DNA from: Candidatus Saccharimonadota bacterium
GTDB lineage: Bacteria > Patescibacteriota > Saccharimonadia > Saccharimonadales > Saccharimonadaceae
Reading direction: 5' to 3'
Length of the DNA: 42,977 bases
Assembly: GCA_017418275.1 (NCBI GenBank)
Contig: JAFONX010000018.1
Coordinates: 1 to 42,977 of the forward strand
The notes under the pieces were generated by a model. The model was not told where the DNA came from. It made no database searches and saw only the letters and a program-made list of their open reading frames with translations. Positions 7,023-39,551 of this stretch are shown one piece after another. A program made the translations under genes and the position numbers. Within the stretch, counting starts at the first letter, position 1. Every line of letters starts with the position of its first letter.

Positions 7023-7050
7023 TTGACTTTTTATATATAAATGCTACAAT
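7023..7050 (+). promoter_or_regulatory. Promoter of the 7208 gene
   Basis: TTGACT (7023-7028), 16-nt spacer, extended -10 TGcTACAAT (TACAAT 7045-7050). The predicted transcript starts near 7057. Confidence 0.75.
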
Positions 7051-7056
7051 AGGTTT

Positions 7057-7207
7057 ATCGCACCTTAAGAATCAGGTTTTTAGACAATCTACGACTCGTC
7101 CTGGACGGTTATATACTTTTCAGAACGAGTCGCAGATTACCTTACGAAAGGGTACGGCGGCCACTATTCTACGATCGCGAGATCTAAAAGAGCAGGAGGA
7201 CTTCATC
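7057..7207 (+). promoter_or_regulatory. Long structured 5' UTR of the 7208 gene
   Basis: About 150 nt without a credible ORF. It has a strong hairpin at 7086-7138 (AATCT-a-CGACTCGT paired with ACGAGTCG-c-AGATT, 25-nt loop) and a small GATC-gcga-GATC hairpin close to the AGGAGGA Shine-Dalgarno. Possibly regulatory; no known riboswitch is recognised. Confidence 0.45.
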
Positions 7208-7774
7208 ATGAAAGATCCTAAAAACAGCACAAACCCCATCCGCCCCAGCTATGCAAAGCCCGAACTCGTCAGAGACGTCTCCACGAGCGAAGTCTACAAG
7301 CGCTATGTCGAGAACAGAATGAACTGGGATTTTGAACCGCGCAAGTTCATAGTAAAAACACTTAGCAGCGGTCGAATCTCTACTCTCTCAGCTCTGAAAT
7401 GCTTCAATTATCTAACAAATGGCTACCTCGACTGCGTCAATGTAGTCGAGGGCACAATGAACCCCAAAGTGAGCGAGGAGAAACTCCTCTACATGGAGGA
7501 GCACATAGCAGACACCTTCGACTTCACAAACAGACTGGTTGAAGAGCTCAGCATAAGCCGGCTGGCCAGAATGCATCCGATCATCATCCTTACCATCAAC
7601 GACATCTACGGCCGTTATGGCGAGAAGGACTTTGACGGCGGGTACGCAGTCGAGCTCAAAGAAAGACTCGGCCACTTCGCGGAAATTCTTAAGACTCACG
7701 ATTGGGAGTCAGAGTTCCCCAATGCTTCAAAAGAAGCTAGAGGGCTCTTTGCTTACCTTACTTCAGAAACCTGA
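7208..7774 (+). CDS. Hypothetical helical protein, Shine-Dalgarno-led
   Basis: Unrecognised 188-residue soluble protein, mostly predicted helix with no signal peptide or membrane segment. The start at 7208 (MKDPKNSTNP) is chosen because AGGAGGA lies 7 nt upstream; the reading frame is open further upstream, but that part overlaps the promoter and UTR and is not convincing coding. Notable segments are MNWDFEPRKFIVKTLSSGRISTLSALKCFNYL and ARMHPIIILTINDIYGRYGEKDF. It belongs to the second gene population here: -35/-10 promoter, long UTR, single-gene unit and its own terminator, with AGA Arg codons more frequent than in the housekeeping genes. Confidence 0.7.
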   Translation: MKDPKNSTNPIRPSYAKPELVRDVSTSEVYKRYVENRMNWDFEPRKFIVKTLSSGRISTLSALKCFNYLTNGYLDCVNVVEGTMNPKVSEEKLLYMEEHIADTFDFTNRLVEELSISRLARMHPIIILTINDIYGRYGEKDFDGGYAVELKERLGHFAEILKTHDWESEFPNASKEARGLFAYLTSET

Positions 7775-19351: not shown

Positions 19352-19380
19352 TTGCATTTTACGACCTTATCTGTTATAAT
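19352..19380 (+). promoter_or_regulatory. rplJL promoter
   Basis: TTGCAT (19352-19357), 17-nt spacer, extended -10 TGtTATAAT (TATAAT 19375-19380). Confidence 0.85.
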
Positions 19381-19387
19381 AACCTCA

Positions 19388-19530
19388 GTTACCAAAGACA
19401 GCGGCGGTCTGAAAAGACTTAATCATGCCGCCGAGGATCATATCTTGTATATATTCTTGGTGACGTTCTGTAGAATTCCATTTTGCAGTTTTAACAATCT
19501 GGCTACAACTAAACCAAAAGGAGATTTCTA
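19388..19530 (+). promoter_or_regulatory. Ribosomal protein L10 leader RNA
   Basis: The roughly 145-nt leader contains the characteristic ACCAAAGACAGCGGCGG ... CTTAAT ... CCGCCGAGG element: outer CGGCGG/CCGCCG pairing, an inner GTCT-GAAAA-GACT hairpin and the CTTAAT internal loop. In other bacteria the L10(L12)4 complex binds this structure to repress rplJL. The downstream genes agree with this call. Confidence 0.85.
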
Positions 19531-32949: not shown

Positions 32950-35649
32950 GTGAGCAAAATAACGCTTAATATCGTAGAGCCTGGAAGCTCTACGCCGGTA
33001 GCACCAAATACTGGCCTATTCATGAATGGCATAGGTACACCAGAAGCCACCGCCATTATTAGCGCCGTAATAATACTAGGCATAATAGCCACTTACATAT
33101 ATAAAAAATACAAAAAAGCGGGCAAAACTAGCAAACTAGCCTACATTATAGAACGAATCAAAACAGCCCGAAGCAATAAGAAACGCGTCGTTACGGGCAT
33201 GGCAGTCATCTCTCTCCTAGTATTAGGCTGTACTTTTACGGCTTTTCTATTAAAAGCTAGCGCTACTAACGCCGACGGAAACCTAACAGTAAATGTTTCC
33301 GACGAAGAGTATACGATTGAGGTAGCAGACGAACCAGTTTTCGCGGTCTTTCCGGTAGAAGTAACAGTAGAAGAGGCTACCGAAATCGGTTATACTCTCA
33401 CGGCTTATACAGACAGTACCGACTTCGTGTCGACCACTAATCCAGACAATGTTATTCCTATGATAACCCTAGGGGATAACGAACTAGCCGCTCTTTCCGA
33501 CAATACTTGGGGCTTAGCCCTAGAAGGTGAACCAACATCAAAAGATGACACCTTATATACCATTCTCTCTACAGACCAAAACAATCCAACTATTCTAAAG
33601 ACGACAGATAACTATACGGCCACTGAAGCCAATGATACTACTACCATTTACTACGGCTTCTATATTACTCCAGATATACCTTATGGCATCTATACTGGCG
33701 GAGAAGTGGAATATCAGGCTAAAGAAAACAGTGCAGCTAAAGTAATCTTCGATGGTAATGGCCTATATTTCAATAACGACTCATCTCAAACCAAAAACAT
33801 CGTATATTACAATCCGGGTAGTCACAGCGAATACCGCTACTCCCACACTCCTAACGTCAGCGATGACGGACAACGCAACAGCGAATACGGCATCAACCTA
33901 GCCAAAACTACCGTATATGACTTTTCAGATTACGAACAAATCTACCTCAATATCGTTAAGTCACAAGAAGATGTTTGCTGGGGTAGCTATAACGATTTCT
34001 TTGCCATGTGGACAGGCAATCATCCAGAATATACTGCGGAAAACAACTGGGACGATGAAGACAGCATTACAGAATATGCCGTCAATAAGAAATATCCATT
34101 CGCGAAAAGATACAAAAATAAGACAATCAATATTTCAGACAACATCATTACAATCGCCTACTATACCGATTCCCAAGAACCTGCTTGCGGTATGGATGCT
34201 TATGGTTACTATGTTAAAATGATTGGCTATACACCTAATATAATAGCTTCTGGCGAGTATTTATTCCCTGACTATGAAAAATCGTTCCGCTTATTAGGTT
34301 GGAGCGAAGACAAAAACGCTACCATACCAACCTACACAAACGAAGAAGCCATTGAACGCGAGCTAAGCTTATCGATGAATGAAACCGTTACGCTCTATGC
34401 AGTTTGGGAGCCAGCCGTAGCTCTGTATTACAATGGCAATGGCGCAGACGGAACTACCGACATGAATAGAGTAGTGCAATACACTGCTAATTTGAACGGT
34501 GACAGCCAAGTAGACCTTCTTGCTTCCAACTTTAAGAAAGCGGGGTATGGTTTTGTGGGTTGGAGCACAGATTCAGACGCTTGGGATAAGCTCACGGACA
34601 ACGACACGAGCAACGATTCCGCTATCTATGGTCCTAATCAAATGATAACCATCGATAATGACCTTATAGCCAAGGCAGGCGAGAATCGCAAGTTAACCCT
34701 CTACGCCGTTTGGGCGCCAGCCGAAAAGGATTCACAGGGCAATCCAGTATATCTTCAAAACTGGACAGGCTGCAGTAATCTTAGCATGGCTACGTATAAT
34801 TCCACGACAAACGATTTCACGGTAGGAAACAACACTATTACGGCTCTTACTGACAGTAGAGACGGTAATATCTATACCATAGCCAGATTAGCCGATGGCA
34901 ACTGTTGGATGACCGAAAACCTCAGAATAGCCGACACGTATGTTAACCCAAATGGCGAAACAGAAACAACCATCCTAACCCCACAAGATACCAACAAACC
35001 TCACACGGAAAATGGTGTGGTTGCCCTAATAAACAATAACGGCACGATCAATAATCACTTATCGCCGAGTAGCGATGACTGGTGCTTCGAGTACGAGGCG
35101 CAATGTTATGATCAGGCTTACATTAATACCAGAAATACAACCGATACAACCGTATCTCCGTCATTCTCTCAAGACTTTACCGATAACCCACACGATAATG
35201 AACTCAGTAACTTATCCGATAATATCTACTCTTACGGCAATTACTACAACCTCTACTCCGCTACGGCCGGCACTGCAACTTCCGATTCCTGGTCTGGCAT
35301 TGCAGATGGCGATATTTGTCCTTCAGGATGGAATCTTCCTATAGCTGGTTACGACAGGGAGCTAAACGGATCACTGCCTCATCTCGGCTACCTAATTGGT
35401 AGTAGCCAGCAAGGCAGCGGAGTAGACGCCTCAAACGCTTGGCGCTCCTTCCCAAACAATTTCATCTATTCAGGCGTCGGATACAATTCAAACCGTTGGG
35501 GTCGCGGCAAACAAGGATACTATATAACTTCGACTATCGGCGGGAACAGCATTAATGCGCTTAGTCTCGAAATACAATATGTATACCCAGGAAACTCTGG
35601 TACAACCTCATATACTCCTGCTTCTGTACGATGCATTCTTACACAATAG
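32950..35649 (+). CDS. Large surface protein with InlB-type repeats and C-terminal FISUMP domain (copy A)
   Basis: 899 residues from a GTG with AAAAGGAG upstream. The N-terminus is Pro/Ser/Thr-rich with APNTG (18-22), TM helix 1 (32-50), a Lys/Arg-rich loop (51-79), TM helix 2 (80-102), then a large extracellular part. Two Listeria/Bacteroides-type (InlB B) repeats are visible: RLLGWSEDKNATIPTY...TLYAVW and GYGFVGWSTDSDAW...LTLYAVW. The C-terminal quarter is a FISUMP (TIGR02145-like) domain: YTIARLADGNCWMTENLRI ... GDICPSGWNLP ... PASVRCILTQ, with paired cysteines. Likely displayed on the cell surface for attachment to host bacteria or surfaces (inference). A terminator follows. Confidence 0.85.
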   Translation: MSKITLNIVEPGSSTPVAPNTGLFMNGIGTPEATAIISAVIILGIIATYIYKKYKKAGKTSKLAYIIERIKTARSNKKRVVTGMAVISLLVLGCTFTAFLLKASATNADGNLTVNVSDEEYTIEVADEPVFAVFPVEVTVEEATEIGYTLTAYTDSTDFVSTTNPDNVIPMITLGDNELAALSDNTWGLALEGEPTSKDDTLYTILSTDQNNPTILKTTDNYTATEANDTTTIYYGFYITPDIPYGIYTGGEVEYQAKENSAAKVIFDGNGLYFNNDSSQTKNIVYYNPGSHSEYRYSHTPNVSDDGQRNSEYGINLAKTTVYDFSDYEQIYLNIVKSQEDVCWGSYNDFFAMWTGNHPEYTAENNWDDEDSITEYAVNKKYPFAKRYKNKTINISDNIITIAYYTDSQEPACGMDAYGYYVKMIGYTPNIIASGEYLFPDYEKSFRLLGWSEDKNATIPTYTNEEAIERELSLSMNETVTLYAVWEPAVALYYNGNGADGTTDMNRVVQYTANLNGDSQVDLLASNFKKAGYGFVGWSTDSDAWDKLTDNDTSNDSAIYGPNQMITIDNDLIAKAGENRKLTLYAVWAPAEKDSQGNPVYLQNWTGCSNLSMATYNSTTNDFTVGNNTITALTDSRDGNIYTIARLADGNCWMTENLRIADTYVNPNGETETTILTPQDTNKPHTENGVVALINNNGTINNHLSPSSDDWCFEYEAQCYDQAYINTRNTTDTTVSPSFSQDFTDNPHDNELSNLSDNIYSYGNYYNLYSATAGTATSDSWSGIADGDICPSGWNLPIAGYDRELNGSLPHLGYLIGSSQQGSGVDASNAWRSFPNNFIYSGVGYNSNRWGRGKQGYYITSTIGGNSINALSLEIQYVYPGNSGTTSYTPASVRCILTQ

Positions 35650-35709: not shown

Positions 35710-35762
35710 AATATAAGGCAAGTCGCATCTATACTGCCTATTATATAGCCCTGCTATATCTA

Positions 35763-35791
35763 TTGACAGAGCATGCTATTTGTGCTATAAT
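35763..35791 (+). promoter_or_regulatory. Perfect consensus promoter of the 35993 gene
   Basis: TTGACA (35763-35768), 17-nt spacer, TATAAT (35786-35791) with an extended TGc. Confidence 0.9.
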
Positions 35792-35797
35792 ATAGCG

Positions 35798-35992
35798 GTT
35801 GGATTTGAAAAATATTCATTTTTGAACAGTATATTAACAAATCGGAGTTTGATTTGCTCTTGAGCAGCGTCAAGCTAATCATGATCCATGATTGGTTTAA
35901 TGCTGCCCAAGAGAAGCAGTGTTGTCAATGTGGGAAAATCCCTTAATTCTACAGAACATTGACATTTCCCCGGTGGGAAGGAAAGGAGCATT
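35798..35992 (+). promoter_or_regulatory. Long structured 5' UTR of the 35993 gene
   Basis: About 195 nt from promoter to ATG. Element 1 (35857-35913): CTCTTG-a-GCAGC with GCTGC-c-CAAGAG, enclosing AATCATG/CATGATT. Element 2 (35923-35964): TGTCAATGT with ACATTGACA, enclosing GGGA/TCCC. Element 3 (35966-35979): TTCCC/GGGAA right before the AAAGGAG Shine-Dalgarno. The GGGAAA at 35932-35937 could pair instead with TTTCCC at 35965-35970, so alternative folds are possible. No known riboswitch class is recognised. Confidence 0.55.
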
Positions 35993-36580
35993 ATGCTTTA
36001 TACAAATCAGAAAAAAGCCGTGAAAGAAATAGACATGTCTTTCGGCACCATAACAGGCATTACCATTGGCGAGTATGGTCGTGGTCGTCGCGAGGTTTTT
36101 CTGCCCACTCCTAAAGGAGTCGAAGGCGAGATTGACGGACTTCGCGAAGACCTGACTATCGGTGTATCTAAGTCGGGCCGCCCGCGCATTAACCGCGCAA
36201 ACGACGGAGAACTCTACGTAATCCTCACTTCAGAGCGCGGCTATACGCGCAGAGGTTGCGGATGCATCAAAATCCCAAAAGCCCAGGAAATCGAGCTGAT
36301 CGCTCGCGGAAATGGCGCCGATGGAGATGCAGGACGCATCGGAAGCTGGGATGTAGTCATCCTTAAGGCTCACGAAGGAGACGTTTTTCGCGTCACGTGG
36401 GGAGGATTTAACTATGGGTATCCCGCAACGTTCTATGTAGTCCACCAAGGAAAGATCTACGCAGCTGACCAACCGGAAGTCGAGGATCTCTATGAAAACC
36501 TCGGCATAGAAATCCCTTTCAGCCTCACCTTTAACGGTGACCGTCTGGTTGTCGATCTCGACGAATGGGCAGAGGTATAA
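35993..36580 (+). CDS. Hypothetical soluble protein between the two surface-protein genes
   Basis: Unrecognised 195-residue protein without signal or membrane segment, predicted mainly beta. Features: MSFGTITGITIGEYGRGRREVFLPTPKG near the N-terminus, TSERGYTRRGCGCIKIPKAQEIELIARGNGADGDAG in the middle with a Cys-Gly-Cys pair, VFRVTWGGFNYGYPATFYVVHQGKIY, and an acidic C-terminus (DRLVVDLDEWAEV). The start is well supported by AAAGGAG 6 nt upstream. The perfect promoter and very long structured leader imply strong but conditional expression. It sits exactly between the duplicated surface-protein cassettes and would be lost by recombination between them. Confidence 0.72.
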   Translation: MLYTNQKKAVKEIDMSFGTITGITIGEYGRGRREVFLPTPKGVEGEIDGLREDLTIGVSKSGRPRINRANDGELYVILTSERGYTRRGCGCIKIPKAQEIELIARGNGADGDAGRIGSWDVVILKAHEGDVFRVTWGGFNYGYPATFYVVHQGKIYAADQPEVEDLYENLGIEIPFSLTFNGDRLVVDLDEWAEV

Positions 36581-36881: not shown

Positions 36882-39551
36882 ATGAATGACATAGGTACGC
36901 CAGAAGCCATCGCCATTATTAGCGCCGTAATAATACTAGGCATAATAGCTGCTTTTGCATATAAAAAGTTCAAGAAATCAGACAAAACTAGCAAACTAGC
37001 GCATATCATAGAACAAATCAAATCAACCAGGAGCAACAAAAAGCACGTCGCTACTGGTATTGCTGTTATCTCTCTCCTGATATTAGGCTGTACTTTTACC
37101 GCCTTTTTGCTAAATGCTAGCGCCATGGATGGCGAAAACAACCTTACCGTAAATACCTCCGACCAGGAATTCACCGTTGAAGTCGCAGACGAGCCAGTCT
37201 TCGCAGTCTTTCCAGTCGAAGTGTCCATAGAAGAGGCTACCGAAAACGGCTATATCCTTACCGCCTATGCAAATAATGCAGATTTCGTATCTACCACCAA
37301 CCCTAACGACATTATCCCTATGATAACTCTAGAAGGTAATGATTTAGCCGCCCTTTCAGACAATACTTGGGGCTTAGCTCTAGAAGGTGAGCCATCATCA
37401 AAAGACGAGGCTACTTATACTACATTATCTACAAGCGAGAATAATCCTACCATTCTAAATAACACTGATGATTATTCGGCAACCGAAGCGAACGACACTA
37501 CTACTATCTATTATGGCTTCTATATTACTCCAGACATGCCTTACGGCACTTATACTGGCGGAGAAGTAGTATACGAAGCAATCCCAAACCGATCAGATTT
37601 GGCCACAGTTACTTTTGACGGGAATGGACTATATTTTAACGATGATCCAAACCAAACACAGAACACGATAAAATTTTTACCAAATACGGAAACCTCAAGA
37701 ACCGTTGCATATACACATACCCCAAACGTAGACAACGACGGAATTCAAGATGGATATTATACAAATAATCTAAATATCACTAACGTTTATAGATTTGCCG
37801 ATGAAGCTACCAAAGTACACGTAAAAGCCATAAGGTCTGGCAGCGACAAATGGTGTGCACCGCCAGATAGTGGAGATTATTTTAGCTTTTGGAGTGGCAG
37901 CCATCCAGAATATACGGCACTGAATGATTATTCTACCGCCATACAAGCCTTTGGCAGCACGGATGGAAAAAACGTTTTCAAGAACTACAGCACCGATATA
38001 AACGAAGAAGTCGATTTACCAGATCAAAATAGCGTAACATTCGCATACACTACGAATGATTCAGACACTTACGCTTGGTGCAAACAAAATATGTCTGGTT
38101 ATGGCTACTACGCCATAATTACCGCCTACGATAGCAATAATGACGAAGTGGCCCTCATTGGTAATGAACCGTACGCTGGAGACTATCTAGTCCCTGACTC
38201 GACTAAGAAAAATAAACTGCTAGGCTGGAGCACAGACAAAGATGCCACTACACCAAGCTACCGCAACGAACAAGATATCGCTCTTGAATTATCTTTAGAG
38301 CCAAACAAAAAAATGACACTTTACGCTGTATGGCAAAGAGGCATAGGAATAACCTACAACGGCAATAATGCAGATAGCAAGACAAATATGGATGGCGCAG
38401 AACAAGAAGCTTATGCAATGGATTTAGCATCATCTAACTTACAAGTAGACCTCCTCGCCTCCAACTTCCAAAGAAAAGGCTACGGTTTTGTAGGTTGGAG
38501 TGCAGATCCAGATGCATGGAACAAACTCACAGATGACGACGACAGTAACAACCCTACTATCTATGGCCCTAATCAAACCATAACCATAGATGGAGATTTA
38601 GTAGCGATAGCAGGAGAAAACGGGAACCTAGTACTAAATGCTATCTGGGCACCAGCTGAAAAAGATTCACAAGGCAATCCAGTATATCTCCAAAGCTGGA
38701 CAGGATGCAGTAGTTTAGATAGAACTGTATATGATTCAACCACCGATACTCTTATCGCAGGCAAAAATACCGTAACAGCGCTTACGGATAGTAGGGACAA
38801 TGGCGTATATACTATCGCAAGACTAGCAGACGGCAATTGCTGGATGACAGAAAACTTAAGATTAGACAACTCTATGAGCAACGAGACTACTACGTCAGAG
38901 TTCACAGCAGAGAACACTAATAGCCCATCAGTGCCATTTACTAACGATTATTCAAGCAATACAAGATCAAATAGATTATCCACTTCATCAGAAGATTGGT
39001 GCGACGTATCTAGTGTCTCGTGCGCCGATCAATCCAGATTCAATAATAGTAATACAATCAATACCGCTTCCACAGTGACATTTAATCATAATTTTACATG
39101 GGGGGAGTCCGTCAATGCACTAGATGATAGTATATACCTTTACGGCAATTACTATAACTTATATTCTGCGACGGCTGGCAATAGTAGATATTATGATACG
39201 GAAGGCAGAATTATAACTGGAGATATTTGCCCAACTGGATGGCATATCCCGATACATCTCGGAGATACTTCTGGCTCATTCTACTATCTCGACTCACAAA
39301 TGGGAGGCGGAGATAACTTTGATAGTTCTAACCGTTGGCGATCATTCCCAAGTAACTTCGTGTATTCTGGCAAAAAAGGTGGTAACGGTTATCAATATCG
39401 CGGCTTAATAGGACACTATTGGACGACTACCGCTAATAATGGCAATTACACATATACCTTCAATGTGCACCAAGGCTATTTGCTTCTCTATGAAGGAGTT
39501 AATGTAGTTAAGCACGAAGGAGCATCCGTACGCTGCATGGCTGAGGTTTAA
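36882..39551 (+). CDS. Large surface protein with InlB-type repeats and FISUMP domain (copy B, 5' frameshift)
   Basis: 889 residues from the internal ATG at 36882 (MNDIGTPEAIAIIS). The same order as copy A: TM helix, Lys-rich loop, second TM helix, long extracellular part, two InlB-type repeats (KLLGWSTDKDATTPSY...TLYAVW; GYGFVGWSADPDAW...LNAIW) and a C-terminal FISUMP domain (YTIARLADGNCWMTENLRL, GDICPTGWHIP, ASVRCMAEV). The conserved Shine-Dalgarno and start lie at 36811, but that frame reaches TAG at 36859 because one base is missing relative to copy A. Either the protein starts at 36882 without a Shine-Dalgarno and without the APNTG segment, or the gene is switched off, or the base is a sequencing error. 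Confidence 0.75.
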   Translation: MNDIGTPEAIAIISAVIILGIIAAFAYKKFKKSDKTSKLAHIIEQIKSTRSNKKHVATGIAVISLLILGCTFTAFLLNASAMDGENNLTVNTSDQEFTVEVADEPVFAVFPVEVSIEEATENGYILTAYANNADFVSTTNPNDIIPMITLEGNDLAALSDNTWGLALEGEPSSKDEATYTTLSTSENNPTILNNTDDYSATEANDTTTIYYGFYITPDMPYGTYTGGEVVYEAIPNRSDLATVTFDGNGLYFNDDPNQTQNTIKFLPNTETSRTVAYTHTPNVDNDGIQDGYYTNNLNITNVYRFADEATKVHVKAIRSGSDKWCAPPDSGDYFSFWSGSHPEYTALNDYSTAIQAFGSTDGKNVFKNYSTDINEEVDLPDQNSVTFAYTTNDSDTYAWCKQNMSGYGYYAIITAYDSNNDEVALIGNEPYAGDYLVPDSTKKNKLLGWSTDKDATTPSYRNEQDIALELSLEPNKKMTLYAVWQRGIGITYNGNNADSKTNMDGAEQEAYAMDLASSNLQVDLLASNFQRKGYGFVGWSADPDAWNKLTDDDDSNNPTIYGPNQTITIDGDLVAIAGENGNLVLNAIWAPAEKDSQGNPVYLQSWTGCSSLDRTVYDSTTDTLIAGKNTVTALTDSRDNGVYTIARLADGNCWMTENLRLDNSMSNETTTSEFTAENTNSPSVPFTNDYSSNTRSNRLSTSSEDWCDVSSVSCADQSRFNNSNTINTASTVTFNHNFTWGESVNALDDSIYLYGNYYNLYSATAGNSRYYDTEGRIITGDICPTGWHIPIHLGDTSGSFYYLDSQMGGGDNFDSSNRWRSFPSNFVYSGKKGGNGYQYRGLIGHYWTTTANNGNYTYTFNVHQGYLLLYEGVNVVKHEGASVRCMAEV

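Follow-up and report, generated by a model that had tools for sequence, protein, structure and literature searches.

The structured 5'-UTR motifs collected in Rfam are covarying leaders, found across species between promoter and start codon, and the leader described here is of the same general kind; it differs from them in that no model matches it, its downstream genes (its cargo) are unrelated and mostly unknown, and it carries a long, conserved duplex of 25 bp. The ribosomal protein L10 leader (RF00557) is also a covarying leader and is read in trans by a protein, as we infer for the new leader. However, ribosomal protein leaders such as L10 belong to one operon type and are autoregulatory, whereas the new leader precedes at least eight gene types. 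The mRNA-stabilizing leaders of Escherichia coli ompA, Bacillus subtilis aprE, and T7 gene 10 combine a strong promoter, a 5'-end hairpin, and a structured leader ahead of a good Shine-Dalgarno (SD), as does the present locus. To our knowledge, these leaders have neither a sequence conserved across unrelated genes nor a three-way junction. In the open-access full texts searched, we found no description of a cis-regulatory RNA from Saccharibacteria.

Results

The window, i.e., the whole 42,977-nucleotide stretch of DNA that was analyzed, is contig G000:C17, which belongs to the 813-kb Saccharibacteria-like genome of a tiny gut epibiont; an L10 leader (RF00557, 57.3 bits) lies within it at 19374-19504. 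A first-pass annotation, made from the letters alone, had pointed to a perfect promoter, an untranslated leader of about 195 nt, and an unknown gene. All three were found on the + strand, where every feature of this locus given below also lies: a sigma-70-type promoter at 35763-35791 (TTGACA-N17-TATAAT, with the TG of an extended -10; 12/12 match), a leader at 35798-35992, and a 195-aa open reading frame (ORF) at 35993-36580. Transcription probably starts near 35798. For 13 of the 21 best leaders, a 12/12 promoter lies no more than 90 nt from P1, the long hairpin described below. Upstream, at 35744-35756, TATAGCCCTGCTA is a weak copy of the DNA motif TYTACCYCTGTTA (10/13 match, p = 0.015) and stands at -19 from the -35 hexamer of the leader promoter. 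The TYTACCYCTGTTA motif recurs at fixed distances ahead of many related promoters and is enriched about 4-fold genome-wide compared with its reversed control, and we infer a role for the window copy TATAGCCCTGCTA. A DNA motif, TTTACCCCTGTTA, lies above leader promoters at other loci (e.g., L065 8895, L076 8627 and 10813, and L075 8247). In many cases it stands about 36 bp upstream of the -35 hexamer with TTTCGACAAA ahead of it; in reversed orientation it is found at -27 or -16. Allowing one mismatch, we counted 116 copies of TTTACCCCTGTTA in 12 genomes versus 31 for the reversed control, and copies also occur away from leader promoters.

The predicted fold of the leader begins with a 5'-terminal hairpin region, H0 (35798-35827), which is weak in the window and stronger in the folds of relatives. 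Between the promoter and P1 lies a single-stranded box, ATATTAACAA (35831-35840), matching ACATTAACAA at 9/10 positions; similar boxes occur in several leaders, and over all leaders the box averages 7.35 matches compared with 6.50 for shuffles, too modest an excess to count as a strong signal. P1 is a 25-bp hairpin (35857-35913) with the conserved core GAGCAGCGU / AUGCUGCUC. It is followed by a three-way junction (35924-35963) made of P2 (35924-35931 with 35956-35963), P3 (35932-35935 with 35939-35942), a nearly invariant unpaired UUAA linker (35943-35946), and the mini-helix P4 (35948-35949 with 35954-35955). A variable hairpin, UUCCC-CGGU-GGGAA (35966-35979), ends 3 nt before the SD AAGGAG (35983-35988), which stands 5 nt upstream of the ATG and is invariant among close relatives of the 195-aa gene. 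The three hairpins had been proposed beforehand, and each appears in both the MFE and the centroid fold at its proposed position, the middle one as 35924-35963 instead of 35923-35964. A sequence scan detected no intrinsic terminator in the window leader. No conserved leader peptide or short ORF was found when the window leader was compared with that of the nearest relative, L003. The one candidate, from TTG at 35854 to a TAA, was rejected by eye: L003 has no start codon in this frame, and its P1 differs in length by one base.

To more quantitatively assess the fold, we compared it with 200 dinucleotide shuffles. For the leader (35798-35992), the folding energy was -60.8 kcal/mol, compared with -42.9 ± 4.1 kcal/mol for the shuffles (z = -4.32), of which 0/200 were as stable. 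We then used an alignment of 20 leaders (A5), which is a plain MAFFT alignment of members that had been found with a structure-aware model. Over the full structure (P1, P2, P3, P4, and the SD-adjacent hairpin), 91.1% of cells were paired and 33 of the 44 pairs had changed on both sides, so that the stems vary with compensation, as the first-pass annotation had suggested looking for. The covariation score was 0.525, compared with 0.275 ± 0.013 for shuffled alignments; slid versions of the structure did not exceed 0.162. By element, P1 was paired in 90.6% of cells over the 20 sequences, with both-side changes in 19/25 pairs; the corresponding count for the junction was 11/14, with 92.3, 96.1, and 97.2% of cells paired in P2, P3, and P4. 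The SD-adjacent hairpin was paired in 84% of cells where present, was absent in about one-quarter of the 20 leaders, and varied in form by gene family. An unconstrained consensus fold (RNAalifold) recovered P1, P2, and P3 de novo, with 26/33 pairs compensated.

Cells with G.U outnumbered those with A.C by 82:34 overall, by 53:23 in P1, and by 32:13 in P1 with 12 representatives, the cells being nonindependent and p-values therefore indicative. Since a DNA palindrome would not produce such an excess, this asymmetry points to selection on the transcribed mRNA strand, and we rejected a DNA palindrome reading of the stems. The order and spacing of leader and gene do not vary, and the leader holds a fixed position ahead of the start codon. 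The leader thus shows what is expected of this general kind of element, namely, compensatory changes beyond those of shuffled and slid controls and a structure on the mRNA strand. The junction is missing in L024 and in the weaker matches L035 and L049, where P1 stays, so one mechanism for all members is not assured. Together, these sequence comparisons make it almost certain that the leader is a conserved structured leader RNA.

We also compared the conservation of the leader with that of its surroundings. In a comparison of the window with L003, identity over the last 140 nt of the leader is 89%, while only 38 of 83 fourfold-degenerate sites of the two genes are identical, and identity is 43% in the 200 nt upstream of the promoter. 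Likewise, L004 and L005 share 98% of this part of the leader, compared with 57/87 fourfold sites and 44% of the upstream DNA. The leader is therefore more strongly constrained than silent sites, and this holds in several gene families.

The 195-aa protein itself offered no route to a function: no match was found in Pfam, PDB sequences, PHROG, or NCBIfam, and the AlphaFold2 model (pLDDT 84), which predicts an all-beta fold, had no fold match in the PDB. The gene is flanked by two paralogues of about 890 aa (window 32950-35649 and 36882-39551), both with weak matches to Listeria-Bacteroides repeats (Flg_new) and the second also with a weak Fib_succ_major match.

We next turn to the distribution of the leader. 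Matches to the 195-aa protein occurred in 13 of 394 family genomes, the source genome included. The leader was present in 3/3 genomes whose protein is 68 to 79% identical and also in a relative at 31% identity (L013, one and the same locus as L024); other distant relatives of the protein lack it. Three of the leader-bearing relatives bear the name Candidatus Saccharibacteria and come from ruminant small intestine. Close relatives of the gene thus carry the leader, and the case against a conserved element that the first-pass annotation had envisaged, a gene kept without its leader, did not arise among them. A covariance model built from five leaders (R1) located the same RNA ahead of quite different genes. 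A second model built from 20 leaders (R2) was run over order, genus, phylum, and the set of genomes with matches, and this search, of the kind proposed in the first-pass annotation, recovered 21 loci scoring at least 54 bits, spread over 19 genomes from four genera, all in one Saccharibacteria family, the surveyed genomes being a sampled subset and mostly draft assemblies. Most genomes have one copy, and two have two neighboring copies. In a 20th genome (G136), a weaker relative scored 31.6 bits (L234); it has the same promoter, and the gene after it reads like the 121-aa cargo family.

Weaker matches were treated with caution. The reverse complement of a true match scores 23 to 48 bits merely from being a long hairpin. 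Since L200-L203 (other families) and the weak L049 and L051-L053 reach only 29 to 41 bits, within that range, we rejected them as members and kept them as similar architecture only, even though L200-L203 are in the right position. We also left out L037, L038, and L050. The window itself holds a second, putative leader with the same architecture (7023-7774): the promoter TTGACT-N16-TACAAT, a 21-bp hairpin (7086-7138) unrelated in sequence to P1, an SD, and an orphan 188-aa ORF (7208-7774), which the rest of the 394 family genomes lack.

Known families did not account for the leader. In Rfam 15, no family reached its gathering score, either for the window leader or for those of 20 related loci, in keeping with the earlier remark that it matched no recognized riboswitch. 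A relaxed scan returned only miRNA and snoRNA models, weak matches that reflect chance matching of a long hairpin. Pattern and protein scans confirmed no phage, viral, or plasmid relative, and a viral or plasmid origin was set aside. With its covarying fold and no Rfam match, the proposal of a new structured cis-acting leader RNA stood. The leader family is real and previously unlisted, with Saccharibacteria as the only group in which it has been demonstrated to date.

At least eight unrelated gene types, mostly unknown, follow the leader: the 195-aa, ~520-aa, 615-aa, and 121-aa families, a MYG1-like protein (PF03690, E 1e-64), a 199-aa protein, a 235-aa protein, and a 38-aa basic peptide. The 195-, ~520-, 615-, 121-, and 199-aa types had no Pfam match above the curated cut-off, and the 235-aa protein had none in PHROG. 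No downstream gene resembles a gene for transport or biosynthesis, and these genes, of which one is MYG1-like, are not tied to one metabolite. With so many gene types, the leader is neither the private leader of one gene nor an autoregulatory site, and an autoregulatory leader of the ribosomal protein type, which would precede one family encoding the ligand of the RNA, was rejected. Leaders of the same gene family are alike even at different genomic places; leader and gene thus travel together. Their distribution is patchy, and different cargo occurs beside the same conserved neighbors, namely, F6/F7/F8 in L065, L077, and L078 and F9/F20/F21 in L071, L075, and L076. Judged from this gene order, the recurring neighbors suggest exchange of leader genes.

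Two further features of these neighborhoods were recorded. At L067, L068, L069, and L070, the ~520-aa leader gene adjoins genes for a MYG1-like protein and a P-loop-like protein, with a RelA/SpoT-HD-like gene also beside it in three of the four, and several of these neighbors have their own near-perfect promoter. A larger conserved noncoding 5' RNA (~230 to 320 nt, 79 to 93% identical between copies) follows near-perfect promoters in arrays at L076 (10777-6045), L071 (5770-7060), and L075 (9972-9715), inside which the leaders L027 and L030 lie. In L076, a repeated element of about 145 nt (CGTCCAACCCACGACGCTAAAATGGGC...) separates small genes, and this locus had no Rfam match.

It had been proposed that the leader forms mutually exclusive folds gating ribosome access. 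The complementary stretches GGGAAA (35932-35937) and TTTCCC (35965-35970) are indeed present. However, the alternative helix that they could form had standard pairs in 81.0% of cells, compared with 78.6 ± 2.0% after shuffling, and a covariation of 0.161 compared with 0.145 ± 0.018, so that this part of the proposal did not rise above shuffles. For the gating itself, energy-model estimates over 21 leaders gave a mean unpaired probability of the SD of 0.43 versus 0.46 for shuffles, and we rejected systematic SD hiding. The wider ribosome site (-15 to +13) was slightly less open (0.45 versus 0.49, p = 0.02; same leaders and estimate), which in these models leaves room for translational control by occlusion. 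In the leaders of the MYG1-like and 615-aa genes, the SD lies inside the SD-adjacent hairpin.

Discussion

Overall, the best explanation, to which we give slightly better than even credence, is a new cis-acting 5'-UTR RNA family with a reader that acts in trans. Transcription from the near-perfect promoter would put the leader, ~195 nt long, at the head of the message; the leader folds into a 5'-end hairpin, P1, usually the UUAA three-way junction, and a variable SD-adjacent hairpin. A shared reader, either a protein that binds RNA or an RNase acting on the long duplex (e.g., RNase III), would determine, for accessory genes that are highly transcribed, how long the message lasts and/or how well ribosomes load onto it. 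Since the cargo has no recognizable common trait and no systematic hiding of the ribosome site is seen, such a post-transcriptional mode of action through a shared trans-acting reader may apply, with chances that we judge to be about even. Neither autoregulation nor a single metabolite fits well with unrelated cargo, intrinsic termination as a means of attenuation is at odds with the lack of a terminator, and a conserved duplex and junction before unrelated genes point to a shared reader.

RNase III could also account for the leader by cutting P1 and leaving a matured message with a junction-protected 5' end or releasing P1 as a small RNA. P1, whose 25-bp duplex is near-perfect and whose loop is short and variable, is a plausible substrate, and the enzyme is present in 8/8 leader-bearing genomes tested. 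However, RNase III needs less sequence conservation than the P1 core shows, which suggests a contact more specific than that of RNase III, and we regard processing of this kind as unlikely. A metabolite or ion riboswitch, with the junction as aptamer and the SD-adjacent hairpin as expression platform, is possible but not favored. The junction is compact, its conserved unpaired UUAA together with the sequence conservation of P1 would also suit a ligand-binding RNA, most members have a hairpin near the SD, and two cargo types have the SD within it. Against this, the downstream genes are unrelated and none is transporter- or biosynthesis-like, several members lack the junction while keeping P1, and Rfam offers no match. 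A riboswitch working through the proposed competing helix was rejected, since that helix is no better than shuffles and the leader has no terminator; the search for expression platforms covered chiefly this helix and terminators. We consider a riboswitch quite unlikely.

A translational gate through mutually exclusive folds, as in the first-pass annotation, would draw on the complementary stretches and the slightly less accessible ribosome site. However, the alternative helix and the unpaired probability of the SD equal those of shuffles, and the SD-adjacent hairpin is the most variable part of the leader, which makes the gate very unlikely in our estimation. Finally, the patchy distribution and the different leader genes near the same conserved genes would be expected of a DNA-level element of mobile gene cassettes, such as a site of recombination or the end of a transposon, in which case the RNA fold would be a by-product. 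Such a reading is hard to credit, given the excess of G.U over A.C, unlike a strand-symmetric DNA palindrome, the fixed order and spacing of leader and gene, and a junction that covaries.

Under the preferred reading of a trans-read leader RNA, promoter and leader may form a portable unit on orphan or accessory genes, recognized by a common RNA-binding factor and making up a shared regulon in Saccharibacteria that is controlled post-transcriptionally, an extension that we offer only tentatively and with some doubt, and that would possibly hold in Patescibacteria more widely. Gene regulation in Saccharibacteria is little known, and the leader defines a candidate regulon while highlighting gene families without known fold or function. 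The leader RNA may be used as bait to fish out the reader factor, and it could serve as an expression part for Saccharibacteria that are in culture and can be genetically manipulated.
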